Under the pieces are notes generated by a model. It did no database searches. It was not told where the DNA came from and saw nothing but the letters and a program-made list of their open reading frames with translations. Below, one piece after another: positions 1,285-51,563 of a stretch of DNA of 64,000 nt (position 1 is the first letter of the stretch; each line of letters begins with the position of its first letter). The stretch lies in the IMG/VR virus record IMGVR_UViG_3300034356_001231, positions 23,809 through 87,808 of that record. One strand, 5' to 3'. The translations under genes were made by a program, and so were the position numbers. Source of the DNA: a virus.

Positions 1285-1508
1285 TACGTATTGATCCTCC
1301 TATACCTTTGTTAACACCAAAGGGCAAAGCATTAGCGCATTTTCTTATTGATTATGGGTTTGAGCACGATTTATATTGGGTTTGTTTTCAAGAAGAAACT
1401 GGTGAATGTTGGACTTGGAATAATAAAGATATAAGAGCGCAAAAGAATATTACGGCTGGTAGGATAAATATCCCGAAGGAGATTCGGGATGTGGACTTAC
1501 AAAGGTGA
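1281..1508 (+). CDS. Small conserved-looking phage protein, unknown function
   Basis: About 75 residues starting at a TTG that overlaps the previous stop (TTGA). The body contains an aromatic, acidic stretch (YGFEHDLYWVCFQEETGECW) of a kind I associate with small T4-like phage proteins, but I cannot name a family. The last 20 bases overlap the next gene in another frame. The non-ATG start and the overlap suggest translational coupling. Confidence 0.6.
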   Translation: MIRIDPPIPLLTPKGKALAHFLIDYGFEHDLYWVCFQEETGECWTWNNKDIRAQKNITAGRINIPKEIRDVDLQR

Positions 1509-1887
1509 AATCTTAGAAGATATACCAGAAGGCTATGTTGGAATGGTTTATATGATCACCAACATAGCCACTAATAAAAAGTATATCGGCAAAAAGATTT
1601 TTCATTTTACTAAAACAAAACAAGTAAAAGGTAAAAAGAAAAGATCTAAAGTTGAAAGCGACTGGAAAAATTATTATGGCTCCAACAAAGAACTCAATGA
1701 GCATGTGGAGTTGTTTGGAGTCAACAACTTTAAAAGAGAAATTCTGCATCTCTGTGTCAATAAATCTCAAATGTCTTATCTAGAATTACGAGAACAGATA
1801 GATCGTAGAGTATTGGAAACAGAAGAGTATTATAACGAATGGATCTCTGCGAAAGTTCGTAAAACAAAACACTTGACTAATCTATAA
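1489..1887 (+). CDS. GIY-YIG-like nuclease-fold protein (Seg-like)
   Basis: A 132-residue protein with an AAGGAG ribosome-binding site ahead of its ATG. The N-terminus shows a degenerate GIY-YIG signature: GMVYMITN followed about ten residues later by KKYIGKK. Further on are WKNYYGSNKELN and FGVNNFKREIL, the arginine/glutamate region seen in GIY-YIG nucleases. A lysine-rich insert (VKGKKKRSK) lies between. It is shorter than typical Seg homing endonucleases and shows no separate DNA-binding domain. It may be a small nicking enzyme or a domesticated remnant. The fold assignment is likely; activity is uncertain. Confidence 0.65.
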   Translation: MWTYKGEILEDIPEGYVGMVYMITNIATNKKYIGKKIFHFTKTKQVKGKKKRSKVESDWKNYYGSNKELNEHVELFGVNNFKREILHLCVNKSQMSYLELREQIDRRVLETEEYYNEWISAKVRKTKHLTNL

Positions 1888-2337: not shown

Positions 2338-2796
2338 ATGAAAAAGCTGAATCTGAATGAAGTAAAAGAATTCATTGTCAATACATCATTGTCAACTAAA
2401 ATTTACATCGGTTCAGATTCAGCACGTCATCGTAAGGGTGATGTTTGGTTTGCTGAATACTGTACTGTTATAGTTGTTCACTATGATGGTAAACATGGTT
2501 GTAAAGTTTTCGGTGAGTTAGAAACCGAAAGAGATTATGACCAGAGGAAAGACAAACCACGCATGCGTCTCATGAATGAAGTAATGAGAACTGCGCAGAT
2601 GTATCTTGAACTTGAAGAAGCTATTGGCGATAGACAAGTTGAAATACATCTGGACATCAACCCTAACGAAAAGCATGGTTCATCATGTGTCATTAGTGAA
2701 GCAGTAGGTTATATCAAAGGAATGTGTAACGTAGTACCTTTCGTAAAACCAAAAGCATTTGCTGCTTCTATTGCAGCTGATAGGCTGCTCGCGTAG
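2338..2796 (+). CDS. RNase H-like protein of the DUF458/YkuK type
   Basis: A 152-residue protein beginning three bases after the preceding stop. It carries the pattern of the DUF458 family: IYIGSDSARHRKGDVWFAEY near the N-terminus, an acidic ERDYDQRKD region, then EIHLDINPNEKHGSS and an AVGYIKGM segment. The DSA, DIN and Glu positions would form an RNase H-fold metal site. Cellular members (YkuK-like) are poorly characterised, so a nuclease role is inferred from fold only. It ends just before the tRNA gene at 2805. Confidence 0.7.
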   Translation: MKKLNLNEVKEFIVNTSLSTKIYIGSDSARHRKGDVWFAEYCTVIVVHYDGKHGCKVFGELETERDYDQRKDKPRMRLMNEVMRTAQMYLELEEAIGDRQVEIHLDINPNEKHGSSCVISEAVGYIKGMCNVVPFVKPKAFAASIAADRLLA

Positions 2797-2804
2797 CCTA
2801 TCTT

Positions 2805-2881
2805 GGGGATGTAGAACAATTGGTTAGTTCCCGCTGCTCATAACAGCGTGGTTGCAGGTTCGAGTCCTGCCATCCCTACCA
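2805..2881 (+). tRNA. tRNA with CAU anticodon (Met or Ile2)
   Basis: It folds as a cloverleaf: acceptor GGGGATG with CATCCCT (first pair G-U), anticodon stem CGCTG/CAGCG around loop CTCATAA, T-arm GCAGG-TTCGAGT-CCTGC, and encoded CCA. The anticodon is at 2839-2841. Met versus lysidine-type Ile cannot be decided by eye. It is the only tRNA on the plus strand here, away from the main array. Confidence 0.9.
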
Positions 2882-2899
2882 TTTCCGAAAGGTTTTATT

Positions 2900-3253
2900 A
2901 TGAATTGTTTGATCCCATTTTTGTGCGCATTAGTTATGAATGCGCCAGATAATAATCATAAATCTAAATATATAAATAAACATTACCAGGGTGGCGGACA
3001 TAACGCCTCTTGGTATAACGACCGGAGCGGACGGACAGCATCCGGCATGCGTCATCACTATGGTGTTGCGCATAGAACTCTACCATTTGGAACAACAGTT
3101 TGCATTAGCAATCCTGCAAATGGTAGATCAGTAGAAGCCGTTGTAACCGATAGAGGGCCATTCGTCAGAGGAAGAACTATTGACGTCAATCAAAACGTGG
3201 CTCGTGCCCTTGGTTTCCGAGGAACCGCACATCTAAATTACCATCCGTGTTAA
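2900..3253 (+). CDS. Exported RlpA-like double-psi beta-barrel protein
   Basis: A 117-residue protein. The ATG at 2900 is preferred over an upstream start inside the tRNA because AAGG lies just ahead of it and the protein then begins with a short hydrophobic signal-like segment. The core GGGHNASWYNDRSGRTASG, LPFGTTVCI, VTDRGPFVRGRTIDV and AARALGF-like pattern is the RlpA/expansin barrel. RlpA proteins bind or cleave peptidoglycan glycan strands and carry a conserved Asp, here in the TDRGPF and RTIDV elements. It may help entry or lysis through the cell wall. It is followed by another exported cell-wall-type protein. Confidence 0.8.
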   Translation: MNCLIPFLCALVMNAPDNNHKSKYINKHYQGGGHNASWYNDRSGRTASGMRHHYGVAHRTLPFGTTVCISNPANGRSVEAVVTDRGPFVRGRTIDVNQNVARALGFRGTAHLNYHPC

Positions 3254-3289
3254 GGGTCGGTTGCACATAACAGAAAGGTAAATCCCAAA

Positions 3290-3811
3290 ATGAAGAAGAT
3301 TATTTTTGCTGCTGTGACAGCAGTAGCTATGCTTGCGATTAGCAGCACAGCTGAAGCACGTCGCTACAGCCAGAATACTCAGTATTCGCAACACGAAGAG
3401 GTAGACTTTGATCCCATTGGCTCTCTCTTCGGAGGAAGTAATTGGAGTGTAACACCACAATTCCGATTACATCCAAAACATGCTGTCTATCATAACAGCC
3501 GTTACCACACTTACTCTCATCATTTTTCTGGCAATATGTCAAGATCAATTGTATCTTATGGTCATATGCTTCAGAATATGGGACTGAGAGTATCCGAACA
3601 TCCAGCATTCGGTGGCGTTCACCATGTTCATCATGGTCATGCGCATTATGCTGGACGTGCGATCGACGTTAATGTTGGTCGTGGCGTATATGAAGCACAT
3701 TCCGGCTATGCTCATAAGTTTGATGCTATTGCAGCACGAGCAAGAGCAGCTGGCTATACAGTACTTTGGCGTGTGGCTGGTCATTTCAACCACATGCACA
3801 TTCAGAAGTAA
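3290..3811 (+). CDS. Exported His-rich M15-type metallopeptidase-like protein
   Basis: A 173-residue protein with a Sec signal peptide (MKKIIFAAVTAVAMLAISS, cut near AEA). The C-terminal half carries HYAGRAIDV and, near the end, HFNHMHIQ. These are the HxxGxAxD and HxH zinc ligands of the M15/D-Ala-D-Ala carboxypeptidase fold. Many other histidines are present. It probably cuts peptidoglycan cross-links in the periplasm. It directly follows the RlpA-like gene, and a strong terminator closes the pair. Exported endolysin-like enzymes are unusual for T4-type phages, which mostly use cytosolic lysozyme and a holin. Confidence 0.7.
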   Translation: MKKIIFAAVTAVAMLAISSTAEARRYSQNTQYSQHEEVDFDPIGSLFGGSNWSVTPQFRLHPKHAVYHNSRYHTYSHHFSGNMSRSIVSYGHMLQNMGLRVSEHPAFGGVHHVHHGHAHYAGRAIDVNVGRGVYEAHSGYAHKFDAIAARARAAGYTVLWRVAGHFNHMHIQK

Positions 3812-3820
3812 TATAAGTAT

Positions 3821-3849
3821 AAGGGTGGCAATGTCCGTGCCACCCTTTT
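3821..3849 (+). terminator. Intrinsic terminator
   Basis: A perfect 10-bp stem (AAGGGTGGCA at 3821-3830 with TGCCACCCTT at 3838-3847), a 7-base loop and a T-run. It closes the exported-protein pair and precedes the ClpP-like gene. Confidence 0.9.
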
Positions 3850-3864
3850 ATCATGGAGGCAAAC

Positions 3865-4431
3865 TTGAACGTAGAAAAAGAGGATAAAAATATAGAAATC
3901 CCTAACATTGAAGATCATCACTACCTATTATTCAACTCGATTTTTGACGCAAGTTCAACAGGCGAAGCAATAAAATTTATTCTCGCTCGTAATCTTATGA
4001 AAAAAGATCGCCCAAAATTCATGAAGATGATCATAAATTCTCCAGGCGGCGAAGTCCCTTCAGCCTTTGCGTTAATTGATACGTTAAAAGGTTCAAAGAT
4101 TCCGGTGTATACATATGGACTTGGTGAAATTGCTTCTTGTGGTCTACTTACGTTCATGGCGGGAACGAAAGGACATCGTTACATTACTAGAAATACCGCA
4201 ATTCTTTCCCATCAGTTCTCATGGGGAACTATTGGCAAAGAACACGAGTTACATGCATCAGTAAAAGAATTTAATAACACCAGTCAACGTATTATAGATC
4301 ATTATAAAAAATGCACTGGCCAGACTGAAGCGACTATCAAGAAATATCTATTACCACCAGAAGATGTTTGGTTAACGCCCAAGGAGGCAGTGAAGTATGG
4401 TATCGCAGACCAAATTGTGGATTTTTACTGA
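3865..4431 (+). CDS. ClpP-like serine protease
   Basis: About 188 residues. The in-frame ATG at 3853 lies upstream of the GGAGG at 3855-3859, so the TTG at 3865, five bases behind that site, is the better start. ClpP features are visible: INSPGGEV (oxyanion strand), GEIASCGLLTFMAG with the nucleophile Ser in ASCG, LSHQFSWG with the catalytic His, and a C-terminal PKEAVKYGIADQIVD. ClpP forms a tetradecameric peptidase, and a phage copy could act in host takeover or prohead processing. Overlap with the next gene suggests coupling. Confidence 0.8.
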   Translation: MNVEKEDKNIEIPNIEDHHYLLFNSIFDASSTGEAIKFILARNLMKKDRPKFMKMIINSPGGEVPSAFALIDTLKGSKIPVYTYGLGEIASCGLLTFMAGTKGHRYITRNTAILSHQFSWGTIGKEHELHASVKEFNNTSQRIIDHYKKCTGQTEATIKKYLLPPEDVWLTPKEAVKYGIADQIVDFY

Positions 4432-4636
4432 GTGGGCAGCAACCTTAATACTAATCATTGGCGTTGCTCTTACATCATGGAACATATATCCAGCTAACAT
4501 ATATATTAGTGCACTAGGTAATTTTTTATGGTTACTTATGGCATTGTATTGGAAAAAGTGGTCTTTGATTGTTATTCAAGTATTCATACTGTTAATATAT
4601 ACAGGTGGTGTAATTAAAGTTTTTATGGGAGTATAA
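4397..4636 (+). CDS. Small membrane protein, about three helices
   Basis: A 79-residue protein with an AAGGAGG site at 4381-4387, starting inside the end of the ClpP-like gene. Three hydrophobic stretches are visible: ATLILIIGVAL, ISALGNFLWLLMALY and LIVIQVFILLIYTGGVI. Short charged turns lie between them. It is probably in the inner membrane. No family is recognised. The tight linkage to ClpP and to the following methyltransferase suggests joint expression only. Confidence 0.7.
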   Translation: MVSQTKLWIFTEWAATLILIIGVALTSWNIYPANIYISALGNFLWLLMALYWKKWSLIVIQVFILLIYTGGVIKVFMGV

Positions 4637-4637
4637 T

Positions 4638-5339
4638 ATGGCAATTATTCGTTTTTCTACCGAAGAAGTGTTCGGTACTGATTCTCAAGAATATGAAATC
4701 CTAACAAATGCAGTAGCTAAAGTAGGCGATACACCAGGAGCAATCGTTGAGATTGGCACTCGTCGTGGTGGTTCTGCTAAGTTGATTATTGATACGCTTG
4801 TCGAGAATGGTAACTCTGATCGTTCTATGTTCTGTATTGATCCTTATGGTAATATTGAAATTGAATGCACCAATCTTAATATGACTATGCACAATCCAGA
4901 CCGCCAAATCGATGGCGATAAGATGTCTAAGGAATTGACATCTCCTCAGCGTTTTGATTATGACAACACCATGCGTAATCGCACTATTCCTTCTCTGTAT
5001 TTCTATGCATACCAGGCAGGTCTTAACTTTTCTTTCTTTTGTCTAGAAGATCACGAGTTCTTTAAGCGTTATGCTGATGGTGTTCCTGTTTATGACGAGT
5101 TTAAAAAGTTAGAAAATGAGTATGCATTTGTTTTCTTTGATGGTCCACATGATAATGAAACGCTACACATTGAATGTGACTTTTTCGTAAAGAGAGCGCC
5201 AGTCGGAGCAGTATACGTATTCGACGATATCTGGATGTATGATCACGATGAGATCGTAGAGAATACTTATCTGTTCCCTAATGGTTTTGAGGTTCTCGAG
5301 AAAAGCAAGATCAAGGCTTCCTACGTCAAGACTAAGTAA
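4638..5339 (+). CDS. Class I SAM-dependent methyltransferase
   Basis: A 233-residue protein. Residues around 37-47 (AIVEIGTRRGGSA) form the SAM-binding loop. FCIDPYG provides the acidic residue after strand 2, and FVFFDGPHD and VYVFDDIW mark the later strands. The pattern resembles the Methyltransf_24/macrocin O-methyltransferase type, often acting on sugars or small molecules. The substrate is unknown. It lies a few kilobases before the sugar-nucleotide cassette, so a sugar substrate is possible. It begins one base after the membrane protein's stop. Confidence 0.7.
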   Translation: MAIIRFSTEEVFGTDSQEYEILTNAVAKVGDTPGAIVEIGTRRGGSAKLIIDTLVENGNSDRSMFCIDPYGNIEIECTNLNMTMHNPDRQIDGDKMSKELTSPQRFDYDNTMRNRTIPSLYFYAYQAGLNFSFFCLEDHEFFKRYADGVPVYDEFKKLENEYAFVFFDGPHDNETLHIECDFFVKRAPVGAVYVFDDIWMYDHDEIVENTYLFPNGFEVLEKSKIKASYVKTK

Positions 5340-5345
5340 TATAGA

Positions 5346-5385
5346 TCCTCCAGGATTATAAATAATACATAACAATTCTGGAGGA
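5346..5385 (+). promoter_or_regulatory. Late promoter inside an RBS-sequestering hairpin
   Basis: TCCTCCAGGATT (5346-5357) pairs with AATTCTGGAGGA (5374-5385), giving a 12-bp stem with one G-U pair. The 3' arm contains the GGAGG ribosome-binding site of the gene at 5389. The T4-type late promoter TATAAATA occupies 5357-5364 at the start of the loop. Late transcripts should start near 5370, lack the 5' arm and leave the site free. Read-through transcripts from upstream would fold it away. Confidence 0.8.
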
Positions 5386-5388
5386 ACC

Positions 5389-6114
5389 ATGCTAAACTTT
5401 GGTAATTATCTATCTGAATTAAAATTGACTCTTCAATATCATGACGAGTTAAATCCTAAGATTTGGAAAACCGAAGATAAGCTAAAACCAGAAGTTCGAC
5501 AGGCGCTTCTGAAGTTTGCTTATACTTGGGCAGATTTTGCCAAGATACCAAAGTCAATGATCGATCATGTTATTATGACAGGCGGTAATGCCAATTATAA
5601 TTACACTAGCAAATCAGACATTGATGTTCATGTTATGGTTGATCGTTCTAAACTCTTCTCGGATCCTAAATTTGTAGAAGAATATTTACAGGACAAAAAA
5701 TCTTTATGGACTCTTACTCATAATGTAGATGTTTATGGTTATCCTCTTGAACCTTACGCTCAAGATAAGACTCTGAAATATCCCAAGAATCAAGGAATAT
5801 ACTGTTTAACAAAAGATGAATGGTTACAGAAACCTAGAAAAATTGACTATGATTTCAAAAACGATCATCTTCTGAAACAAAAAGTTTCACATTACATGCA
5901 TGCAATTGATCATATGATCAACACTAAAATGAATGTTGATGCTTTTGAAAATATGAAGTCTCGTTTCAAAAACATGCGTGCTGCTTCTCTGCAACAATAT
6001 GGTGAATTTGGTAGAGAGAATCTTCTATTTAAAGAGTTACGTAACCGTGGGTACATAGACAAAATGAATAAATATGAAACATCACTCAAAGATAAAGAAC
6101 TCTCTTTAAAATAG
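5389..6114 (+). CDS. Predicted nucleotidyltransferase (pol-beta fold)
   Basis: A 241-residue protein. Near residues 65-83, MTGGNANYNYTSKSDIDVHVMVD matches the GG/S...DxD motif of the polymerase-beta nucleotidyltransferase superfamily. The C-terminal half is Lys- and Arg-rich and helical. Such enzymes add nucleotides to proteins, antibiotics or RNA; the target here is unknown. Translation appears to be delayed to the late phase by the hairpin and late promoter just upstream. The start is fixed by the GGAGG at 5380-5384. Confidence 0.7.
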   Translation: MLNFGNYLSELKLTLQYHDELNPKIWKTEDKLKPEVRQALLKFAYTWADFAKIPKSMIDHVIMTGGNANYNYTSKSDIDVHVMVDRSKLFSDPKFVEEYLQDKKSLWTLTHNVDVYGYPLEPYAQDKTLKYPKNQGIYCLTKDEWLQKPRKIDYDFKNDHLLKQKVSHYMHAIDHMINTKMNVDAFENMKSRFKNMRAASLQQYGEFGRENLLFKELRNRGYIDKMNKYETSLKDKELSLK

Positions 6115-6146
6115 AGCTTTTCTTTTTCTTAAATGTAGTCTATAAT
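6115..6146 (+). promoter_or_regulatory. Possible -10 box TATAAT before the 39-residue gene
   Basis: TATAAT stands at 6141-6146, about 25 bases before the ATG at 6171, but no good -35 box lies at the right distance. A weak CTCT/AGAG hairpin with a T-rich tail at about 6100-6130 may end the previous transcript. Listed as a candidate only. Confidence 0.35.
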
Positions 6147-6170
6147 AGAGTGTCTTAAATGGAGGTTGTT

Positions 6171-6290
6171 ATGACAATGAGCAGCGAACTAGAATTTATG
6201 GTTGAAACAGATATGATTGAACGGGGATATAATCCTTATAACCCAGAAGAAGTCAATATGTATTGGGAGAGCTATTTCAATGGCCATTGA
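6171..6290 (+). CDS. 39-residue protein, unknown function
   Basis: An ATG nine bases behind a GGAGG site (6161-6165) opens a 39-codon frame to TGA 6288-6290. It is acidic and Met/Tyr-rich, ending NMYWESYFNGH. Its last codons overlap the glutaredoxin start in another frame, the usual coupling pattern here. No motif is recognised. The good ribosome-binding site and the overlap support it as real. Confidence 0.65.
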   Translation: MTMSSELEFMVETDMIERGYNPYNPEEVNMYWESYFNGH

Positions 6291-6555
6291 AATCTACTCA
6301 AAGAACAATTGTTCTTTTTGCGAACAAACTAAAAAAATCCTAAAAATTCATGGTAAAGAATATGTCGAATATAAACTCGACGAAGACTTTACACGCGAGA
6401 TCCTTCTTTCAAAATTTCCGGAAGCCAAGACATTTCCGGTTATTGTTGTCGATGGTTTTAATATTGGAGGATTCGAACAACTGAAGAAATATCTCACAGA
6501 AGAAACTTCTGACAACAGAAAGATTCTATTAGAAACCAATTATTATGGAGCTTGA
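6280..6555 (+). CDS. Glutaredoxin
   Basis: A 91-residue protein starting at the ATG at 6280, since the longer frame begins at an unsupported TTG inside the previous gene. It has the thioredoxin-fold active site CSFC near the N-terminus (residues 11-14), the cis-Pro TFPVIVV segment and GGFEQLKKYL for glutathione binding. It is comparable to T4 NrdC. It would supply electrons to the ribonucleotide reductase at the start of the window or to other thiol enzymes. Confidence in the family is high. Confidence 0.9.
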   Translation: MAIEIYSKNNCSFCEQTKKILKIHGKEYVEYKLDEDFTREILLSKFPEAKTFPVIVVDGFNIGGFEQLKKYLTEETSDNRKILLETNYYGA

Positions 6556-7218: not shown

Positions 7219-8052
7219 ATGGTCGATATGATTTGGTCTGATTTCGATCCGGAATCAGAATATTCAATTAAGCAACGTGAAGCTAAAGCAATAAATGGGC
7301 CAGATTATTGGCCAACTATGCGGGAAGTGTTCAAGCATGATTGTGCTACACTCCCGCTCAATCGTTTTAGATTGTGGGCTTCGTGTCACAATGTTCCTTT
7401 TATTACACAGTATAGAACTTCTCGTTTTGTAGGCGAAGCATTCTATCATGCTGCTCGTGATGCAGAAATCGCAGAAGCTCTTGAAGAAAATTGGATTGGC
7501 GCTCCTGAACATATTCGTCCAGCCCTTAAAGTTACCTCTGACTTCGACACTTCTATGCAGCGTATTCAAGATATAGCTCATTTGTGTATTACTGGATTTG
7601 CGAAGAAACTGAAAGACATGGAATCAATCGTTGAGATTGGTGCAGGTTATGGAGACATGTGTTCAGTTGTTCATGCTTTAGGATTCAAAGGTAAGTATAC
7701 CATTGTTGATATTCCAGAGACTCAACCTATTCAGGCGCACTATCTTGGTAAGCAAGGTATAACTCCGGAGTGGTCATTCGAAGACGATAATGTAACACAT
7801 TCTGATCTTGTTATTGCTACTTGGTCGTTGTCAGAAACACCAGTAGAATATCGTAATGTATTAATGCCAAAGATTGACAAATCTAAAAATTGGCTTATAC
7901 TAGCACAGTCAGAAGTATTTGGTTTGAAAGTTAATGACGATTACTTCAACAATTTCTTCCTAGATAAGGAAGTGGAAAAGATTCCGTTGATCAGTAATGG
8001 TCTTGACGTTTGGGATGGAGGAAATATGTATTATGTTGTACGGAGCGAATAA
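7219..8052 (+). CDS. SAM-dependent methyltransferase, putative sugar O-methyltransferase type
   Basis: A 277-residue protein. The ATG at 7219 follows a GAGGATTAT ribosome-binding site; the longer frame would overlap the previous gene deeply. The SAM-binding loop is ESIVEIGAGYGDMCSVV in the middle, followed by YTIVDIPE and a SDLVIATWSLSE segment. The overall order resembles putative sugar O-methyltransferases. It opens the run of sugar-metabolism genes, and its end overlaps the nucleotidyltransferase start by 20 bases. A substrate in heptose or glycan decoration is likely but inferred from context. Confidence 0.65.
   Translation: MVDMIWSDFDPESEYSIKQREAKAINGPDYWPTMREVFKHDCATLPLNRFRLWASCHNVPFITQYRTSRFVGEAFYHAARDAEIAEALEENWIGAPEHIRPALKVTSDFDTSMQRIQDIAHLCITGFAKKLKDMESIVEIGAGYGDMCSVVHALGFKGKYTIVDIPETQPIQAHYLGKQGITPEWSFEDDNVTHSDLVIATWSLSETPVEYRNVLMPKIDKSKNWLILAQSEVFGLKVNDDYFNNFFLDKEVEKIPLISNGLDVWDGGNMYYVVRSE
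7874..7901 (+). promoter_or_regulatory. Possible intragenic promoter (TTGACA-16-TATACT)
   Basis: TTGACA at 7874-7879 and TATACT at 7896-7901 lie 16 bp apart inside the methyltransferase gene, about 130 bp ahead of the nucleotidyltransferase start. It could give extra transcription of the sugar cassette but may be fortuitous in AT-rich coding DNA. Confidence 0.35.
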
Positions 8053-8527
8053 AACGTTTTATCCTTCCACTGCCGAACCATGTTATAATACCGCTGAAAA
8101 GTGGAAACCAAACATTGGTATTACATTCGGTGCGTTCGATCTTCTGCATGCTGGACATACAACTATGTTACAGCAGTGTAAAAATCAGTGCGATCAGCTG
8201 ATTGTCGGTCTTCAGTCTGACCCTACAATTGATCGTCCAGATACAAAGAATAAACCAATTCAATCTTTATTTGAAAGATACGCGCAGCTTGATGCATGTC
8301 GTTGGGTTGATGCCATCATTCCATATGATTCAGAAAACGATTTATTAAATATACTAAGTATTGCTGATGTAAGAAAAAGGTTTATAGGTGAAGAATACAG
8401 AGGCCAATATATTCATGGTTCTGATATTTGCGCCGCAAGAAATATAGAAATTATTTTTATTGATCGTCAACATGGATTTTCTTCTAGCGAATTGAGAAGG
8501 CGAGTTGCTAATGAGTCACACAGATAA
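8033..8527 (+). CDS. HxGH-type cytidylyl/adenylyltransferase (sugar-nucleotide synthesis)
   Basis: A 164-residue protein starting at ATG 8033, with GGAGG at 8017-8021. It has the signature FGAFDLLHAGH (His39, His42) and, near the C-terminus, the substrate-closing FSSSELRRRV. It matches the RfaE C-domain/TagD superfamily, which transfers AMP or CMP to a sugar- or polyol-phosphate. Among its neighbours the natural substrate is heptose-1-phosphate, giving ADP- or CDP-heptose (inferred). The stop lies inside the next gene, showing tight coupling. Confidence 0.8.
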   Translation: MLYGANKTFYPSTAEPCYNTAEKWKPNIGITFGAFDLLHAGHTTMLQQCKNQCDQLIVGLQSDPTIDRPDTKNKPIQSLFERYAQLDACRWVDAIIPYDSENDLLNILSIADVRKRFIGEEYRGQYIHGSDICAARNIEIIFIDRQHGFSSSELRRRVANESHR

Positions 8528-9095
8528 TTATTTTAATGAAGTTGTTACAATTGCTCAAACTATCGATACAGTCAAGATTGACATATTGGCACAGAAACTT
8601 CGCGATGTTCGTGAAAATAATGGCCGTGTATTTGTTCTTGGCGTTGGTGGTAGTGCTGGTAACGCTTCCCATATGGTCAACGATCTTAGAAAGCTATGTG
8701 GTATCCAGGCATATTGTCCTACCGACAACGTTCCGGAACTCACAGCACGAACTAATGATGAAGGATTCGACACAGTCTTCGAAGAGTATCTAAAGGTAAG
8801 TAGACTTAGTCCTTTTGATGCTATCTTTATTTTATCAGTTGGTGGTGGCAACAAAGAAAAGAACGTATCAGTTGGTCTAATCAATGCTATTGATCTTGCT
8901 GATGCTATTGGCGCTAACATTTTTGGTATAGTTGGCAAGAATGATGGCTATACTTATAAAATGGGCGATTGTGTTGTATGTGTACCTGCTGTTGATAATA
9001 CACGTGTAACTCCTCACTCAGAAGCATTCCAGGGCGTAGTCTGGCATTGCTTAGTTTCTAATCCAATCTTACAGAAGAATGCAACAAAATGGTAA
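8511..9095 (+). CDS. gmhA: SIS-domain sedoheptulose-7-phosphate isomerase (GmhA-like)
   Basis: A 194-residue protein, close to the family length. The ATG at 8511 overlaps the previous gene. It shows VFVLGVGGSAGNASHMVNDL (phosphate loop), LTARTNDEGFDTVFEEYL and the C-terminal EAFQGVVWHCL, all typical of phosphoheptose isomerases. GmhA converts sedoheptulose-7-phosphate to D-glycero-D-manno-heptose-7-phosphate in the cytoplasm, the first step of heptose-nucleotide synthesis. The transaldolase at 9628 could supply its substrate. The family call is strong; exact sugar specificity is inferred. Confidence 0.85.
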   Translation: MSHTDNYFNEVVTIAQTIDTVKIDILAQKLRDVRENNGRVFVLGVGGSAGNASHMVNDLRKLCGIQAYCPTDNVPELTARTNDEGFDTVFEEYLKVSRLSPFDAIFILSVGGGNKEKNVSVGLINAIDLADAIGANIFGIVGKNDGYTYKMGDCVVCVPAVDNTRVTPHSEAFQGVVWHCLVSNPILQKNATKW

Positions 9096-9631
9096 AAGCG
9101 ATATTTCTAGATCGTGATGGCACGATCAATGAACTTGTTCATGGCAGAGAAAACCCAAAGCACGTTTGCCCTTGGTATTTTGCAGAGTTCAATTATATTG
9201 ACGGTATAGAAGAAGCGATTAAAGGGTTTAGAGCTCTTGGCTTTTCTCTTCATGTTGTAACCAATCAGCCGGATGTTGATGATGGTTATACTACTGAAGA
9301 TACTATGAACGCTATTCATAATTGTATCAAAGCAGATTTAAAAGTGGATACAATTCAGGCAGCAAGAACACGTGGCACTGAAGAGTATAAACCTAATCCT
9401 GGTATGCTTAATAATATCATTAAAGAGTGGCATGTTTCAAAGGAACGTAGCTGGATGATTGGCGATACTTGGCGAGACGTAGTAGCAGGTAATAGGGCTG
9501 GCGTTAAGACTATATACCTTGGTGATATATATTCTGCTCCTGAAGAATGGTTGCATATTAAGCCAGACTTCTATGCTAAGAATCTTCTAGAAGCAGTTAA
9601 CATTATTCAACAGAATGTAGGTGGACAATGA
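9089..9631 (+). CDS. gmhB: HAD-family heptose bisphosphate phosphatase (GmhB-like)
   Basis: A 180-residue protein overlapping the isomerase end by 7 bases. It begins with the HAD motif I FLDRDGTI (Asp8, Asp10), followed by VTNQPDV (motif II), YKPNPGM (motif III Lys) and MIGDTWRDVVAGNRAG (motif IV). This is the histidinol-phosphatase/GmhB subgroup. The zinc-binding cysteine loop of E. coli GmhB is not seen, so the enzyme is a variant. It would remove the 7-phosphate from heptose-1,7-bisphosphate, downstream of the GHMP kinase at 11377. Confidence 0.8.
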   Translation: MVKAIFLDRDGTINELVHGRENPKHVCPWYFAEFNYIDGIEEAIKGFRALGFSLHVVTNQPDVDDGYTTEDTMNAIHNCIKADLKVDTIQAARTRGTEEYKPNPGMLNNIIKEWHVSKERSWMIGDTWRDVVAGNRAGVKTIYLGDIYSAPEEWLHIKPDFYAKNLLEAVNIIQQNVGGQ

Positions 9632-10368
9632 TTGAGATTTATGCTGATGGCGCAGACTTTGATGGTATTCTAAAGGCTGCTGAGAATCCAAGGGTTACAG
9701 GATTCACTACTAATCCAACGCTAATGAAGCAAGCTGGCGTTACTGATTATGAGAATTTTGCTAAAGATATTATTAAAGAATTATCAGTTCGTCGTCCAGG
9801 AACTAATATCTCTCTAGAAGTATTTGCTGATGATGTAAATGGAATGTATGATCAGGCAAAGAAGATTGCTTCATGGGGCGAAGAATATGGATACGATGTG
9901 TTTGTTAAAATCCCTGTTACAAACACAAAGGGTGAAAATAATTATGGTTTGATTCGTTTGCTAAACAGTGAAGGTGTAAAGGTAAATGTTACAGCTGTCT
10001 TTACTGTCAATCAGACACGTAACATTCTAGATAATATTACTAATCCAGATGTACCCGTTATCATTTCTATTTTCTCTGGACGTATCGCTGATACACTTCG
10101 CGATCCAGTTTTGTGGACAAAACATTGTGTTGGCGAAGCTATGGACAAGCCAGAAGAATTTGATAAGATTAAGTTCCTTTGGGCTTCGTGTCGCGAACAG
10201 TATCATCTTGTGATGGCTGAACAAGCAGGTTGTAATATTATTACTATGCTTCACGATCAGATCAAGAAGCTAAGTCTAGCTAATAAAGATCTAGATGTAT
10301 TCTCTAAAGAAACTGTTCAAATGTTTTATAATGATGCTGTTGCATCCGGATATAGGATTGAAGTATAA
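9628..10368 (+). CDS. Transaldolase / fructose-6-phosphate aldolase family
   Basis: A 246-residue protein starting with an ATGA overlap. The TalC-like pattern is clear: EIYADGADFDGI, GFTTNPTLMKQ and VFVKIPVT with the Schiff-base lysine Lys94. The C-terminal part carries ITMLHDQIKKL. Transaldolase moves a dihydroxyacetone unit from fructose-6-phosphate to erythrose-4-phosphate, forming sedoheptulose-7-phosphate, the exact GmhA substrate. Cyanophages use a similar enzyme to redirect carbon. Here its position between heptose genes suggests it feeds that pathway (inference). Confidence 0.85.
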   Translation: MIEIYADGADFDGILKAAENPRVTGFTTNPTLMKQAGVTDYENFAKDIIKELSVRRPGTNISLEVFADDVNGMYDQAKKIASWGEEYGYDVFVKIPVTNTKGENNYGLIRLLNSEGVKVNVTAVFTVNQTRNILDNITNPDVPVIISIFSGRIADTLRDPVLWTKHCVGEAMDKPEEFDKIKFLWASCREQYHLVMAEQAGCNIITMLHDQIKKLSLANKDLDVFSKETVQMFYNDAVASGYRIEV

Positions 10369-11372
10369 TGAAGGGATTTGAAGAAAACGAAATTTCAGCT
10401 AAAGCTCAAGGCGGTACAGAAATTGCTAAACGTAAGTTGGCATCAATTATTGACGAAAAGCTGCTTGATAATTTCCAGATTGTTTGTTCACGTCCGAGAG
10501 AATTAGACGAATCTAAGATTCGAATTTTTTGGTGTCATGATATGCCAGAAGATCCAGAGTCTGCTAAGTTCAGAGATACAGAATGGCGTGACAAGTTTCA
10601 CAAATTTGTATTCATTTCTAACTGGCAGTTTCAGCGCTACCAGGGAATGCACGGCATTCCCATGGACAGTAAGTGTATTATTCTAGAGTCTGGTATTGAA
10701 CCAGCACCAGAGTCATGCCTAGAAAAGTCATATGATGATAAGATTAGATTGGTTTATACATCTACACCACAACGTGGTCTAGAGATTCTTGTTCCTGTAT
10801 TTGAATTTCTAAATCAAACACAGGATGACATTCATCTAGATGTATTCTCTTCTTTTAAGATTTATGGATGGGACGAATACGATAAACAGTTCGAACCATT
10901 ATACGAACAGGTTCGTAATAATCCAAACATGACTTATCATGGATTTGTTCCTAACGCAGAACTAAAAGAATATCTAAACAAGTCTCATATATTTGCTTAT
11001 CCTTCTATTTGGCCAGAGACTAGCTGTCGTGCTATGCTAGAAGCAATGTCAGCAGGACTTGTTTGTGTTCATCCAAATCTTGGCGCTCTACCAGAAACTT
11101 CTGGTGCATTGAATGTTATGTACCAAATTGATATGGACAAAAATATGCACGGTAGTATTTTTGCCGGTAATCTCAATGCAGCTATAGAGTTAGTTCGGCA
11201 GAAAAATCAAGACAATATGATTAGATTCAATAAAACATATGTTGATTCTAGATATAATATTGATTTCATCAAAAGCAAATGGGAATTTATGTTAAAAGAT
11301 CTTGTCAAGAGATATCCTGATGAAGATTCAAGAAAGTTTCCTGAAGCTATGTTTACTTATAAGACGAGCTAA
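10368..11372 (+). CDS. GT-B glycosyltransferase (GT4-like)
   Basis: A 334-residue protein; TAATG overlap with the transaldolase. The N-terminus has the GGTE element of GT4-like enzymes. The second domain holds RLVYTSTPQRGLE, YHGFVPNAELKEYLNKSHIFAYPSIWPETSCRAMLEAMSAG and GALPET, where the E-x(7)-E sugar-nucleotide site sits. It transfers a nucleotide-activated sugar. Being embedded among the heptose genes, it probably uses the NDP-heptose made here. The acceptor could be phage DNA, a virion protein or the host surface; the sequence does not decide. Confidence 0.8.
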   Translation: MKGFEENEISAKAQGGTEIAKRKLASIIDEKLLDNFQIVCSRPRELDESKIRIFWCHDMPEDPESAKFRDTEWRDKFHKFVFISNWQFQRYQGMHGIPMDSKCIILESGIEPAPESCLEKSYDDKIRLVYTSTPQRGLEILVPVFEFLNQTQDDIHLDVFSSFKIYGWDEYDKQFEPLYEQVRNNPNMTYHGFVPNAELKEYLNKSHIFAYPSIWPETSCRAMLEAMSAGLVCVHPNLGALPETSGALNVMYQIDMDKNMHGSIFAGNLNAAIELVRQKNQDNMIRFNKTYVDSRYNIDFIKSKWEFMLKDLVKRYPDEDSRKFPEAMFTYKTS

Positions 11373-11376
11373 CAAA

Positions 11377-12366
11377 ATGATCTTAACAAAGACTCCTCTA
11401 CGTGTATCCTTCTTTAGTGGAGGAAGTGATATGCCATCCTTCTACGAGCAGGAGGATGGCGCTGCTCTTTCTGTTACTATTGACAAATTCATTTATGTCT
11501 TTGCTCACAAAGTCCCACATATGGGTGTACGTTGTATGTATGATGACGTTGAAGAGCAACATGATATTGAACAAATGCAGCATGCTATTACTCGTGAGAC
11601 ACTCAAGTATTATAATGTCACAAAGGAACTAACAGTTGCATCCATTTCAGATATTGTCACTAAGGGTTCTGGGCTCGGTTCTTCTTCTGCTTTTACTGTG
11701 GGTTTGGTAAAGGCTCTTTCTTGCACCAAATATGATAATAGCACACGTAAGTACGTTGCTGACATTGCATGTCAGATAGAAATGGATAAGTGCGGCTATC
11801 CTGTTGGTAAGCAAGATCAGTATGCTGCTGCATTTGGTGGAATGAATCTATTTCGTTTCAGAAAAAATGGTGAAGTAGAAGTAGAAGAACTACGTTTAAC
11901 TAATCCTAATGTCGAGGCTCTCGAGAAAAATCTAATGCTTGTTTACTCTGGTAGAAGTAGAAATGCTAATAACATTCTACAAAAGCAGCAAAAAGCAATG
12001 ATGGATAATGATAAATTTAACAAGGTCAAACGCTCTAAAGATAAAGCGTTCGAAGGTATGGATCTAATCCTCAAAGGAAAGATCGATGACTTCGGTAGAC
12101 TACTACACGAATCTTGGTTAGATAAAAAAGGTGTTTGCGAAGAGATCACCCAAGATTATTTCGATAATGTTTATCAAACAGCGATCGAAGCCGGAGCTCT
12201 TGGTGGTAAACTACTGGGTGCTGGTGGTGGAGGATTTTTTATTTTCTACGTGCCAGAAAAATATAGAACATCTGTAGAGGGCGCTATCTCTAATTTTCAT
12301 AAAGAATGCAAAATCTATGATTTCGAATTTTATGGATCCGGTTCTCATATGGTCTACCAGAACTAA
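11377..12366 (+). CDS. hddA: GHMP kinase, heptose-7-phosphate kinase (HddA-like)
   Basis: A 329-residue protein. The ATG at 11377 is chosen because the conserved N-terminus (KTPLRVSFFSGGSDMPSFY) follows directly; a longer frame would overlap the glycosyltransferase. GSGLGSSSA at about residues 97-105 is the GHMP ATP loop, and KLLGAGGGGFFIF is motif 3. The N-terminal pattern is that of D-glycero-alpha-D-manno-heptose-7-phosphate kinases. It would phosphorylate C1 before GmhB removes the 7-phosphate. It closes the cassette, and a new promoter follows. Confidence 0.85.
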   Translation: MILTKTPLRVSFFSGGSDMPSFYEQEDGAALSVTIDKFIYVFAHKVPHMGVRCMYDDVEEQHDIEQMQHAITRETLKYYNVTKELTVASISDIVTKGSGLGSSSAFTVGLVKALSCTKYDNSTRKYVADIACQIEMDKCGYPVGKQDQYAAAFGGMNLFRFRKNGEVEVEELRLTNPNVEALEKNLMLVYSGRSRNANNILQKQQKAMMDNDKFNKVKRSKDKAFEGMDLILKGKIDDFGRLLHESWLDKKGVCEEITQDYFDNVYQTAIEAGALGGKLLGAGGGGFFIFYVPEKYRTSVEGAISNFHKECKIYDFEFYGSGSHMVYQN

Positions 12367-17356: not shown

Positions 17357-17430
17357 TGGAGCGGGCGAAGGGAATCGAACCCTCGTCTTTAGTTTGGAAG
17401 ACTATGGCTCTGCCATTGAGCTACACCCGC
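17357..17430 (-). tRNA. tRNA-Gly (TCC)
   Basis: Cloverleaf with acceptor GCGGGTG/CGCCCGC, anticodon loop CTTCCAA, a T-arm with TTCGATT and encoded CCA. One mismatch at the outer anticodon-stem pair. Reads GGA/GGG. Confidence 0.9.
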
Positions 17431-17432
17431 AA

Positions 17433-17540
17433 TTAGTTCACACTTGTCATTATATTGATATCGCTTACAACAAAACCAATTACAATTGTTATAAGAAAGA
17501 AACAAACAATCTTTATAATAGCACTAGTCTTGTGATCCAT
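17433..17540 (-). CDS. 35-residue single-span membrane protein
   Basis: Between two tRNAs, an ATG at 17540 with AAGGAAATATATT upstream opens a 35-codon frame ending TAA at 17433. The peptide has a short charged head (MDHKTSAIIK), one hydrophobic helix (IVCFFLITIVIGFVV) and a polar tail. It should sit in the inner membrane. Tiny membrane proteins of phages often modulate host functions or lysis, but nothing specific is known here. The good ribosome-binding site, placed neatly between tRNAs, supports it. Confidence 0.6.
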   Translation of the reverse strand: MDHKTSAIIKIVCFFLITIVIGFVVSDINIMTSVN

Positions 17541-17557
17541 AATATATTTCCTTTAGT

Positions 17558-17632
17558 TGGCTCGGGGACCTGGACTCGAACCAAGAACGACTGAGTCAGA
17601 GTCAGCAGTTTTACCAATTAAACTATCCCCGA
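17558..17632 (-). tRNA. tRNA-Gln (CTG)
   Basis: Acceptor TCGGGGA/TCCCCGA, anticodon loop CTCTGAC, T-loop TTCGAGT, encoded CCA. Sister of the Gln(TTG) gene at 18933, with a nearly identical acceptor and D-arm. Confidence 0.9.
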
Positions 17633-17633
17633 A

Positions 17634-17709
17634 TGGTGCTGGCAGAAGGAATCGAACCCTCGACCTGATGCTTACAAGGCAACTGCTCTACCGTCTGAGC
17701 TATACCAGC
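17634..17709 (-). tRNA. tRNA-Thr (TGT)
   Basis: Acceptor GCTGGTA/TGCCAGC, anticodon loop CTTGTAA, T-loop TTCGATT, encoded CCA. Its 5' end lies one base from the exported-protein gene at 17711. Confidence 0.9.
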
Positions 17710-17710
17710 A

Positions 17711-18130
17711 TTAATACGCAGGAACCAAACAACTCTGAACCAGATCTGCCCCACCAAACAACTGGCCGAACAAATCATAAGGATCAACATACATTGCACA
17801 GTTCCGAGAAGCTGCTACAGGAACGTTCAGTGGATATCCTGGCGGCGAATAAATGTTAGACGCTTCTGGTGTTGGAACGTAACTATAAACAGGAACCAAC
17901 GGTGCAGGCTGAACAGGAACTACTACAGGAACTGCGATCGTTGAACTAATAGGTCCAGGACCAGCAGGAAGATACTCGACCGCTACCGGAACAGGAACGG
18001 TCTTTACAACCTTCTTGACTATTGGTCTTTGAACATTGATATTGCAGTTGTTACATTGATCAATGTTGTAGTTTCCGGCCAAAGCAGGAGTTGTAAGCAT
18101 AAGAGCAAATGCTAATACTAGCTTTTTCAT
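17711..18130 (-). CDS. Exported Pro/Val-rich protein
   Basis: A 139-residue protein. The ATG at 18130 gives a clean signal peptide (MKKLVLAFALMLTTPALA, cut before GNY); the longer open frame upstream overlaps the previous gene. The mature protein has two cysteines close together (DQCNNCNI), a long Pro/Val-rich section (VKTVPVPVAVEYLP, VVVPVQPAPLVPVYSYVP) and two later cysteines. It probably spans or lines the periplasm or outer surface. It forms a pair with the Gly/Tyr-rich gene at 18132. No family is recognised. Confidence 0.7.
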   Translation of the reverse strand: MKKLVLAFALMLTTPALAGNYNIDQCNNCNINVQRPIVKKVVKTVPVPVAVEYLPAGPGPISSTIAVPVVVPVQPAPLVPVYSYVPTPEASNIYSPPGYPLNVPVAASRNCAMYVDPYDLFGQLFGGADLVQSCLVPAY

Positions 18131-18131
18131 C

Positions 18132-18416
18132 TTAGTACCCGTAGTAATAATAACGACGAGGATTGTAGTAATAAGCAGGAGGAGCATATGGTGCATAGTA
18201 TCCACCACCATAAGCTGGATAACCATATCCATACCCATAACCCTGCGAAGCAATAGCTCCACCAATTACACCACCAAGAATAGCAGCACCAGCCATTGCT
18301 CCATAGGCTGCACCATAACCATAACCATATCCATATCCGCCCCAATACTGAGCGTTAGCAGGTTGGGCAGTAGTGATACCAAAAACCAGTAGTAATGCAA
18401 CAGCAAACTTTTTCAT
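18132..18416 (-). CDS. Exported Gly/Tyr-rich protein with glycine-zipper segment
   Basis: A 94-residue protein. The start at 18416 follows a GGAG site and gives a signal peptide (MKKFAVALLLVFGITTAQPANA). Then come alternating Gly-Tyr repeats (YWGGYGYGYGYG), a glycine-zipper stretch (AGAAILGGVIGGAIAS) and a Tyr/Pro-rich tail ending RRYYYYGY. Glycine zippers insert in membranes, so it may form an outer-membrane or envelope plug. A late promoter at 18463 suggests expression at the end of infection, perhaps in lysis or superinfection exclusion (inference). Confidence 0.7.
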   Translation of the reverse strand: MKKFAVALLLVFGITTAQPANAQYWGGYGYGYGYGAAYGAMAGAAILGGVIGGAIASQGYGYGYGYPAYGGGYYAPYAPPAYYYNPRRYYYYGY

Positions 18417-18462
18417 TTCTCTTCTCCATAGGAAGTGGACTAACCATGGGCCCACACGAGTC

Positions 18463-18470
18463 TATTTATA
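18463..18470 (-). promoter_or_regulatory. T4-type late promoter TATAAATA
   Basis: The minus strand reads TATAAATA about 45 bases before the ATG of the Gly/Tyr-rich gene, whose ribosome-binding site (TATGGAG) follows. It lies between that gene and tRNA-Asn, separating the exported pair from tRNA transcription. Confidence 0.7.
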
Positions 18471-18484
18471 GCGACCAACCTAAA

Positions 18485-18559
18485 TGGCTCCCTGAGAAGG
18501 ATTCGAACCTCCGACCAAGTGATTAACAGTCACCTGCGCTACCGCTGCGCCACCAGGGA
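18485..18559 (-). tRNA. tRNA-Asn (GTT)
   Basis: Acceptor TCCCTGG/TCAGGGA, anticodon loop CTGTTAA, T-loop TTCGAAT, encoded CCA. The stop of the 65-residue gene falls inside its 5' part. Confidence 0.9.
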
Positions 18560-18736
18560 AAAGAACCAATAACCGCCACCAAACAACATAACCAAAAAGA
18601 TAATGTTCCAACAGATATCGTTGATCATATCTTTCTTTACTTGACACATCACTCGATCGCAACCGATTGGATACGTTCGAGTTACTCGAGAACACTCTCT
18701 ACAGACATAATAGTTAGGGAAGTTCATATCATTCAT
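18539..18736 (-). CDS. Small protein with CxxC motif and membrane helix
   Basis: A 65-residue protein starting at ATG 18736, seven bases from a perfect -10 box, so probably leaderless. A zinc-knuckle-like CRECSRVTRTYPIGCDRVMC stretch is followed by a hydrophobic segment (ICWNIIFLVMLFGGGYWFF). Its last 7 codons run into the tRNA-Asn gene, so transcription of this gene also carries the tRNA. A second in-frame ATG is at codon 4. Function is unknown. Confidence 0.65.
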   Translation of the reverse strand: MNDMNFPNYYVCRECSRVTRTYPIGCDRVMCQVKKDMINDICWNIIFLVMLFGGGYWFFSLVAQR

Positions 18737-18742
18737 ATTTAT

Positions 18743-18770
18743 ATTATACCCTAGAACTGCAAAAAGTCAA
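18743..18770 (-). promoter_or_regulatory. Sigma70-type promoter, leaderless geometry
   Basis: Minus strand: TTGACT (18765-18770), 16 bp, TATAAT (18743-18748), with TCTAGGG directly before the -10 box as at 21613. The ATG of the 65-residue gene is the seventh base after the box. A TATAAATA string overlaps at 18736-18743 and could add late activity. Confidence 0.8.
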
Positions 18771-18771
18771 G

Positions 18772-18847
18772 TGGTGCTGTCGGAGAGAATCGAACTCCCG
18801 ACATGCGCATTACTAATGCGCTGCTCTACCAACTGAGCTACGACAGC
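18772..18847 (-). tRNA. tRNA-Thr (AGT), unusual A34
   Basis: Acceptor GCTGTCG/CGACAGC, perfect anticodon stem GCGCA/TGCGC around TTAGTAA, T-loop TTCGATT, encoded CCA. The anticodon AGT has adenosine at the wobble base, rare in bacteria outside tRNA-Arg. Confidence 0.85.
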
Positions 18848-18853
18848 ATTTAA

Positions 18854-18927
18854 TGGCACTGGCACCAGGTATCGATCCTAGTCTACAAGATCCACAATCT
18901 CGTGTGCTACCTTTACACTATGCCAGC
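18854..18927 (-). tRNA. tRNA-His (GTG)
   Basis: Acceptor GCTGGCA/TGCCAGT, anticodon stem CGAGA/TCTTG around TTGTGGA, encoded CCA. The T-loop is the unusual ATCGATA, and no templated G-1:C73 pair is evident. Confidence 0.8.
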
Positions 18928-18932
18928 AAAAC

Positions 18933-19007
18933 TGGATCGGGGACTAGGACTCGAACCTAGAAAGTCGGAACCAAAATCCGACGTTATGCCAATTTAACTA
19001 TCCCCGA
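18933..19007 (-). tRNA. tRNA-Gln (TTG)
   Basis: Acceptor TCGGGGA/TCCCCGA, anticodon stem TCGGA/TCCGA around TTTTGGT, T-loop TTCGAGT, encoded CCA. Confidence 0.9.
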
Positions 19008-19008
19008 A

Positions 19009-19085
19009 TGGTGTCTCGAGTAGGAGTCAAACCTACAGCCTTCGGTTTCGTAGACCGATGCTCTATTCAGTTGAGCTATCGAGAC
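19009..19085 (-). tRNA. tRNA-Arg (ACG)
   Basis: Acceptor GTCTCGA/TCGAGAC, anticodon stem TCGGT/ACCGA around CTACGAA, T-loop TTTGACT, encoded CCA. A34 is normal for this isotype. Confidence 0.9.
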
Positions 19086-19086
19086 A

Positions 19087-19164: not shown

Positions 19165-19169
19165 ATAAA

Positions 19170-19272: not shown

Positions 19273-19275
19273 AAA

Positions 19276-19351: not shown

Positions 19352-19361
19352 ATATTTATAT

Positions 19362-37359: not shown

Positions 37360-37516
37360 TTTTAGAACTTGCCTTTACAACAGCAGCCGTAACATAATCA
37401 CGAATAGCATCTAGACGTAGCAATAGATTTGCTCTTTCGTTTTCTCGAATATTTTTGTCGTTTAATCTATTAACAATATCCTGAACGACAACAGGTACTA
37501 AATGATCATTCTTCAT
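37334..37516 (-). CDS. Small helical protein between gp55 and gp47
   Basis: A 60-residue protein starting MKNDHLVPVVVQDIVNRLNDK and Arg/Asn-rich thereafter. It overlaps gp55 and gp47 by about 11 and 26 bases. T4 carries small genes in the same interval (the 55.x group), but I cannot assign a homologue. No motif is visible. Confidence 0.6.
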   Translation of the reverse strand: MKNDHLVPVVVQDIVNRLNDKNIRENERANLLLRLDAIRDYVTAAVVKASSKNENRSFNR

Positions 37517-38048
37517 TTTCTTCCACCTCTGAAAATTTTTCTACTCCAGTAAGTTTACTCTCTTTTTTAGATTTAGTCAACTTATCTTCAAACGAACGCA
37601 CTATGTCTGACGAATACTCATTAGATTTCAAATGCATAGCATGCCCCGAATTTTCTACAATTTCGCTAAACAAATGAGAGTTCTCGAAATTCTTATGTTT
37701 TATATATGTCTGTTTCTTTTCTTTTTGTATTCTTCGAAGAAAGGCGTTCCATGCAATCTGTGTAAAATAAGCAAATGGATTGTTTGTTTTGTCTGGATTA
37801 AAATTATCAACTGCAGATATACAATCCATGATACCATCAGAAATCATTTCTTGTTTGTATGTATATCCTGAGAAGTTTGGTTTCTTAGCAAGATTATTAC
37901 ATATAAGGATAATCGATTCTCCAATATAGTTAGGCACTTGCGGTTTATCTGCATCGTGTTCCAGAGCATGTTGCAAATCATTCTTGTAATGGATCATGGC
38001 GCCATATAAAGTTTTGTTATTGATATAATTTTTTACCTTAGCCATCAT
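37506..38048 (-). CDS. 55: Late-gene sigma factor gp55
   Basis: A 180-residue protein (T4 gp55: 185). YIGESIILICNNLAKKPNFSGYTYKQEMISDGIMDCISAVDNFNP and FAYFTQIAWNAFLRRIQKEKKQ correspond to sigma region 2, the only part retained in T4-type late sigma factors. With the clamp it directs host RNA polymerase to TATAAATA promoters, several of which are visible in this window. Transcribed from a promoter inside the preceding gene (38167). Confidence 0.9.
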   Translation of the reverse strand: MMAKVKNYINNKTLYGAMIHYKNDLQHALEHDADKPQVPNYIGESIILICNNLAKKPNFSGYTYKQEMISDGIMDCISAVDNFNPDKTNNPFAYFTQIAWNAFLRRIQKEKKQTYIKHKNFENSHLFSEIVENSGHAMHLKSNEYSSDIVRSFEDKLTKSKKESKLTGVEKFSEVEENEE

Positions 38049-43166: not shown

Positions 43167-43174
43167 TATTTATA
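43167..43174 (-). promoter_or_regulatory. T4-type late promoter for gp23
   Basis: TATAAATA on the minus strand, 35 bases ahead of the gp23 ATG, with a typical leader and AAAGGAAAAC site. Confidence 0.85.
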
Positions 43175-44372: not shown

Positions 44373-44380
44373 TATTTATA
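44373..44380 (-). promoter_or_regulatory. T4-type late promoter for gp22
   Basis: TATAAATA on the minus strand, 33 bases ahead of the gp22 ATG, overlapping the stop of gp21. Confidence 0.8.
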
Positions 44381-51555: not shown

Positions 51556-51563
51556 TATTTATA
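51556..51563 (-). promoter_or_regulatory. T4-type late promoter for gp18
   Basis: TATAAATA on the minus strand, 47 bases ahead of the gp18 ATG, in the short gap after the terminase gene. A GGGAG site follows. Confidence 0.8.

Follow-up and report, generated by a model that had tools for sequence, protein, structure and literature searches.

Promoter-containing hairpins in T4 and in the leader studied here

In bacteriophage T4, gene e lies in an early-transcribed region and its ribosome-binding site (RBS) is held in a stem whose 5' arm is located upstream of the late transcription start, and the late RNA lacks this arm; according to the accessible part of the source, the measured effect of this leader is about 100-fold (PMC3014915). 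A late promoter inside an RBS-hiding hairpin of early or middle transcripts is likewise described, in the accessible part of PMC2988022, for I-TevI, I-TevII, I-TevIII, segB and mobE of phage Aeh1, and in both sources, as far as accessible, RBS sequestration is named for the late genes soc, 49, 39, 25 and 26 on long messages (PMC3014915, PMC2988022). We describe a comparable leader in front of a gene for a putative nucleotidyltransferase (NTase) in T4-like phages of one family that is known from metagenomes, where the hairpin probably restricts synthesis of the NTase to late infection. The analysis concerned a 64-kb stretch of DNA, hereafter the window, which comprises bases 23809-87808 of the 87,808-base IMG/VR virus record IMGVR_UViG_3300034356_001231.

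The NTase leader shares with gene e the RBS stem and, by prediction, a late start past the 5' arm. In contrast to gene e, which encodes a lysis enzyme and whose effect was measured, the switch at the NTase gene is predicted, and it differs in sequence and position; unlike I-TevI, I-TevII, I-TevIII, segB and mobE, which are mobile endonucleases, the NTase is not a mobile endonuclease. With soc, 49, 39, 25 and 26 it has in common an RBS that would be hidden in a long message, a likeness that follows the published description in its accessible part. The parallel to e, soc and I-TevI had been drawn in the original prediction and is indeed in print in the accessible parts of PMC3014915 and PMC2988022. 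The prediction also regarded NTases as a gene class without a prior report of this switch, and a search of the open-licence literature yielded none. The arrangement itself is already known; what this case adds is the gene, the phages that carry it and the depth of the comparison.

The hairpin and its promoter in the window

The 12-bp stem that had been predicted to bury GGAGG, with TATAAATA at the loop, was present base for base, both by direct reading and by RNA folding (Table 1). It consists of 11 Watson-Crick pairs and one G-U pair (5354-5377), and base 5357 serves both as the first T of TATAAATA and as the final paired base on the 5' side. The predicted RNA fold comprises exactly this 12-pair stem; the region 5335-5440 has a z of -2.6 and none of 200 shuffles was as stable. 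When the 5' arm (20 nt) was shuffled, 0 of 1000 trials were equal or better (p 0.001). No Rfam family matches the hairpin, and from 2445 to 6417 of the plus strand the terminator scan gave no terminator-like site. For the predicted transcription start, the spacing from TATAAATA is presumably that of T4 late promoters.

Table 1. Features of the NTase locus and of the late genes in the window (positions of the window)
Feature	Position	Strand	Basis or remark
Upstream gene, Methyltransf_24-type methyltransferase	4638..5339	+	ORF and domain assignment
5' arm of the RBS-hiding stem	5346..5357	+	sequence read directly, RNA folding, arm shuffles; predicted to be missing from late RNA
T4-type late promoter TATAAATA at the loop	5357..5364	+	octamer also present ahead of the head, scaffold and sheath genes
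Predicted late transcription start	5369..5371	+	inferred
3' arm of the stem with Shine-Dalgarno GGAGG (5380-5384)	5374..5385	+	sequence read, folding
NTase-fold protein, 241 aa, phrog_36119 (ATG at 5389)	5389..6114	+	function unknown in PHROG; fold from model and GG/DxD residues
Capsid-targeting-like sequence MLNFGNYLSE, codons 1-10	5389..5418	+	motif match to T4 sequence
gp55-like late sigma factor gene	37506..38048	-	phrog_234, E 3.3e-54
TATAAATA before major head protein gene (41756-43132)	43167..43174	-	no RBS hairpin
TATAAATA before scaffold gene (43180-44340)	44373..44380	-	no RBS hairpin
TATAAATA before tail sheath gene (48903-51509)	51556..51563	-	no RBS hairpin

We read TATAAATA as a late promoter because it is located upstream of the head, scaffold and sheath genes and because a late sigma factor gene is present; a gp55-like gene was found in 8 of the 13 related records searched. 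The frequency of TATAAATA in the window is ordinary (11 occurrences vs 7.2 expected). For a gp45-like clamp, PF02916 gave no match in five records, but likewise none in control genomes. Upstream of the NTase gene and on the same strand lie a ribonucleotide reductase fragment (phrog_367) and genes for a ClpP-like protease, a small hydrophobic protein and the methyltransferase; a glutaredoxin gene lies downstream. The putative late gene would therefore sit among genes that are early or middle in T4.

Conservation of the stem and re-made 5' arms

The homologue scan yielded 48 viral loci (49 with the window), of which 43 leaders were used; L043 and L044 (truncated) and L045-L048 (50% identical) were left out, and L136, a wider cut of the contig of L045, was tested among the distant homologues. 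The 43 leaders, from relatives at 67-100% protein identity, reduce to 16 distinct ones, and in all 16 TATAAATA is located at the loop. Related phages that break the stem had been named as evidence that would speak against the predicted switch. The stem was kept: 14 of the 16 distinct leaders beat shuffles of their 5' arm (1000 each) at p ≤ 0.05, the others being L014 (0.055, borderline) and L015 (0.137, a weak stem). The combined p of 2.6e-20 is overstated, since the leaders are related and the tests not independent. Own 5' arms gave on average -13.4 kcal/mol vs -8.8 kcal/mol for arms swapped between leaders; the own arm ranked first or second in 10 of 16 leaders and lower in six (ranks 6, 7, 11, 6, 6 and 4, with L015 at 11). 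A looser score, the expected pairs between leader and start region, was dropped in favour of arm shuffles and opening energies, as 256 of 520 control starts reached at least 5 and real cases were not separated from random starts.

Covariation was evaluated for 10 pairs in the 11 leaders that follow a methyltransferase gene. Here 94.5% of cells are paired, compared with 27-71% when the partners are slid against each other, and four of the 10 pairs show double compensatory changes, as the original prediction had proposed to look for. The covariation score is 0.398 vs 0.257 in shuffled alignments, with 0 of 500 shuffles reaching 0.398; the alignment puts L006 and L013 one base off and is in this respect biased against structure.

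Five further leaders (L014, L015, L030, L035 and L038) have no methyltransferase gene ahead of them, and a gene for a small hydrophobic protein precedes the NTase gene instead. L014 and the group L030/L035/L038 nevertheless enclose the promoter in a stem, whose unrelated 5' arm derives from the end of the other upstream gene, while the re-made stem of L015 is not convincing. These methyltransferase-free leaders occur at three separate places in the NTase tree: L014 inside the starred group of five that includes the window, L015 with L020 and L022 (90/87), and L030/L035/L038 as a starred group of three. To judge from these leaders, the re-making of the arm is the strongest evidence that the hairpin exceeds chance.

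Predicted effect on translation and comparison with other late genes

Opening energies were calculated for a long RNA, beginning 60 nt upstream of the promoter, and a short RNA, which begins 13 nt past the first T of TATAAATA. For 16 of 16 leaders it costs more to open RBS and AUG in the long RNA (median 10.8 vs 3.2 kcal/mol). In the five large related records, 39 other genes with a late promoter had a median difference between long and short RNA of 0.4 kcal/mol and only two reached 5, in a comparison whose distance filter was passed by 3 of the 5 NTase genes. In the window the short RNA is still predicted to be structured, with GGAGG 0.20 unpaired and an opening cost of 6.5 kcal/mol.

A hairpin test defined by at least 6 cross pairs and p ≤ 0.05 was passed by 13 of 99 late-promoter-like genes in nine genomes: 6/22 in T4, where the positive controls e and I-TevII were recovered, 3/15 in G002, 1/9 in G000 (the record studied here), 1/15 in G004, 1/14 in G009 and 1/5 in DSL-LC03. 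No gene passed in G007 (0/8), S-CRM01 (0/10) and Cr30 (0/1). The NTase gene is the single passing gene in G000, G004 and G009 and one of the three in G002; its leader in G007 gave p 0.065. At position 40846 of DSL-LC03, TATAAATA is enclosed by a 12-pair stem that includes the start codon AUG of a small ORF.

The nucleotidyltransferase and its N-terminus

The product is, according to its predicted structure, a protein of the polymerase-beta-type nucleotidyltransferase fold. This assignment, made in the original prediction, was borne out by the GG and DxD residues (G65, G66, D77 and D79 invariant in 58 of 58 family members) and by an AlphaFold model with pLDDT 90. The profile PF01909 (NTP_transf_2) matches 54 of the 58 members at E ≤ 0.1 (best 7.1e-05); the window protein itself scores 17.8 bits (E 0.0043), under the curated cut-off of 21. 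Structure matches are weak and consistent, the best PDB matches being NTases (CdnC, CdnD, AAD(9) and MNT), with which the protein shares a GG...DxD-type core and the fold. The model of the window NTase has no Foldseek match below E 0.001. A sequence search of solved structures gave three matches at E 0.43-0.91, which were judged to be chance.

The first ten residues resemble the capsid-targeting sequence of T4, in which, according to the accessible part of PMC9026906, residues 4 and 7 matter for targeting and residues 8 and 10 for processing. As in T4 IPII and IPIII, there are aromatic residues at 4 and 7, an aliphatic one at 8 and E10 (PMC9026906, accessible part); unlike these, the NTase has an enzyme fold and its packaging is predicted. 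With a strict motif, M..[FY]..[FY][LIVM].E, the search picks out 2 of 209 T4 ORFs, exactly ipII and ipIII, and 2 of 718 S-CREM2 open frames, which both belong to the virion proteome; the SAM hydrolase of S-CREM2 is a third fit, from its annotated start. Seven of 761 ORFs match in the five related records, namely five NTases and two proteins of 424/428 aa. A late promoter precedes 7 of these 7 vs 43 of the 754 other ORFs, a combination found only in these five records and partly in S-CREM2: none of the five strict-motif ORFs in T4, S-CRM01 and DSL-LC03 has TATAAATA or CATAAATA just upstream. Within the clade 14 of 14 distinct NTase N-terminal 10-mers match, and 10 of 16 in a hand-chosen set of more distant N-termini. 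We found no open-licence paper that links an NTase to a capsid-targeting sequence.

Virion evidence comes from S-CREM2, where mass spectrometry detected ORF156 (126012-126725), a hypothetical protein, with 6 unique peptides and 15.2% coverage (Table 3 of PMC10665884, a source accessible in part). ORF156 is a homologue of the NTase (48.9% identity over 97%), and its start, MKKLISELKL, is not a strict motif match. The authors of that study point out, in the accessible part, that abundant proteins, some enzymes among them, may co-purify (PMC10665884). Packaging of the NTase in phage heads appears likely on these grounds. The capsid-targeting-like N-terminus and the virion homologue would give a reason for late-only synthesis: because proheads assemble late, a packaged NTase would have to be a late protein despite its nucleotide-metabolism neighbours.

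Other proteins also carry such starts. The non-structural S-CREM2 virion proteins ORF6, ORF14 and ORF154 (SAM hydrolase, kinase and cytidylyltransferase) each start with the capsid-targeting motif, in the case of ORF14 from GTG, and the accessible part of the source paper contains no mention of it. The 424/428-aa protein (L055:1168-2439, in the same record before the window, and L065:14359 in G009) is a candidate for a second packaged protein; its late promoter directly follows a C-rich, terminator-like stretch with a T run, and the L055 copy has no PHROG match.

Distant homologues

The scan for distant homologues covered 80 of 579 confirmed loci, and 43 leaders were examined among the matches listed. 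A late promoter was found in 21 of these 43, and 3 of the 21 (L094, L095 and L111) passed the hairpin test, again among the matches listed. No such hairpin is present in the leaders of the isolates MA01, S-CRM01, S-CREM2 and Cr30, in which the NTase gene overlaps the gene ahead of it; DSL-LC03 has a gap at this point but lacks TATAAATA. Since only 3 of the 21 distant late-promoter leaders pass and the isolates are without it, the NTase hairpin appears to be confined to one clade and a few scattered cases rather than universal in the protein family; elsewhere the gene would be insulated from upstream transcription by other means, or not at all. L105, whose leader was classed from a wrong downstream start in this set, has by eye an 8-bp stem around the late promoter upstream of the NTase gene, with a 5' arm that is apparently the 3' end of a tRNA gene.

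Proposed switch and alternative explanations

We consider it likely that the NTase leader is a T4-type switch for late expression. Read-through RNA from the upstream genes would contain both arms, so that the stem folds, GGAGG is hidden and no NTase is made. After the onset of replication the gp55-like sigma factor would start transcription about 6 nt after TATAAATA, in the loop; the late RNA would have no 5' arm and a freer RBS from which the NTase is translated, and would presumably be the sole translatable RNA. The NTase, with its capsid-targeting-like N-terminus, would probably then be loaded into the late-assembling proheads. In this scheme we infer the start site, the read-through, the silence of the long RNA, the packaging in this phage and the modification target.

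Ribosomes that finish the upstream gene could instead open the hairpin by translational coupling, in which case NTase synthesis would follow that of its neighbour and the overlap with the promoter would be incidental. For the L030 group, whose 5' arm is part of the final codons of the upstream gene, with the stop codon within TATAAATA, translating ribosomes would open the arm, and in the window the stop (5339) is 6 nt ahead of the arm. Yet in the methyltransferase group the arm is wholly past the stop, where a terminating ribosome would presumably cover only part of it, and coupling leaves unexplained why every distinct leader has retained the promoter precisely at the loop; we regard it as unlikely. 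The palindrome might also be a DNA or RNA operator for a protein such as the NTase itself or a RegA-like repressor. I-TevI offers a precedent, as it represses its own late promoter via an overlapping operator (PMC2988022, accessible part), but the letters of the stem vary while pairing is kept (CCTCC/GGAGG, CCCTGGATT/AATCCAGGG, ATTGGTTC/GGAATCAAT), and because of this we favour pairing over a fixed recognition sequence and give the operator little credence.

Still less probable is that the repeat ends the upstream transcript as an intrinsic terminator or stabilises its 3' end. A terminator does occur just before the late promoter, ending 4-11 nt ahead of it, in 6 of the 21 distant late-promoter leaders among the matches listed. 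At the NTase gene, by contrast, no T run follows the stem (GGAGGAACCATG), the stem is absent from the terminator-scan list, its 3' arm is the RBS itself and its loop the promoter. The explanation we find least credible is chance, by which a strong Shine-Dalgarno sequence near a T/A-rich promoter would happen to pair with an upstream pyrimidine stretch: RBS pairing is common in long leaders, random starts scored high on the loose score and L015 is compatible with no structure, but the arm shuffles, swapped arms, slid-partner controls and re-made arms all argue against it.

On the late-expression reading, a classic T4 control device extends to uncultured T4-like phages, including stems re-made from new sequence, and is tied to a newly linked protein class, an NTase with a homologue seen in virions (as judged from the open-licence literature). 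Late-only control together with a capsid-targeting N-terminus would also allow head-packaged, possibly injected enzymes to be predicted from sequence alone. More tentatively, and with considerable doubt on our part, the NTase may be a late-only cargo: heads would be armed with an injected enzyme that works in the next host on, for instance, RNA, tRNA or a defence protein. Made early, it would hinder the phage or the producing cell and would be silenced by any means, be it a promoter-in-loop hairpin, re-invented with a new neighbour, or elsewhere a terminator set against the promoter.

Related arrangements at other genes

A scan of the whole collection for CCTCC-TATAAATA-GGAGG gave at least 119 stretches and the control with a scrambled promoter at least 120, so that no enrichment can be read from the counts. 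Among the matches listed, 59 of 130 with the promoter have an ORF start after GGAGG vs 16 of 73 in the control, an excess that is suggestive only. A late promoter in an RBS stem was seen before GIY-YIG homing endonucleases in many T4-like contigs (L320:4292, L296, L325, L216 and L219 among others) and before a neck-like protein (L208, L213, L220 and L247); two structural genes that diverge from each other (L235, L239 and L299) show it as well. At 1463-1887 (plus strand) the window itself contains, behind GATAAATA at 1463, a SegE-type GIY-YIG ORF (PF19835) whose RBS lies in a small hairpin, CCCGAAGGAGATTCGGG, wholly downstream of the promoter.

Further along the plus strand, 7997-12366 encodes a sugar-nucleotide-type cluster (SIS domain, HAD phosphatase, transaldolase, glycosyltransferase and GHMP kinase). 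Nineteen tRNA genes are packed into 3 kb on the minus strand (17357-20444), with one further tRNA-Met at 2805. A conserved structured RNA leader (24037-24107, plus strand), which has no Rfam match, is located between a TAAATA-type promoter and homing-endonuclease-like ORFs. Copies of this leader type occur in L074, L079, L080, L201, L205, L206 and L065 (11 copies in 4 records); 94.8% of cells are paired, 30 cells are double-changed vs 9.4 in shuffles, and the last stem contains the RBS.
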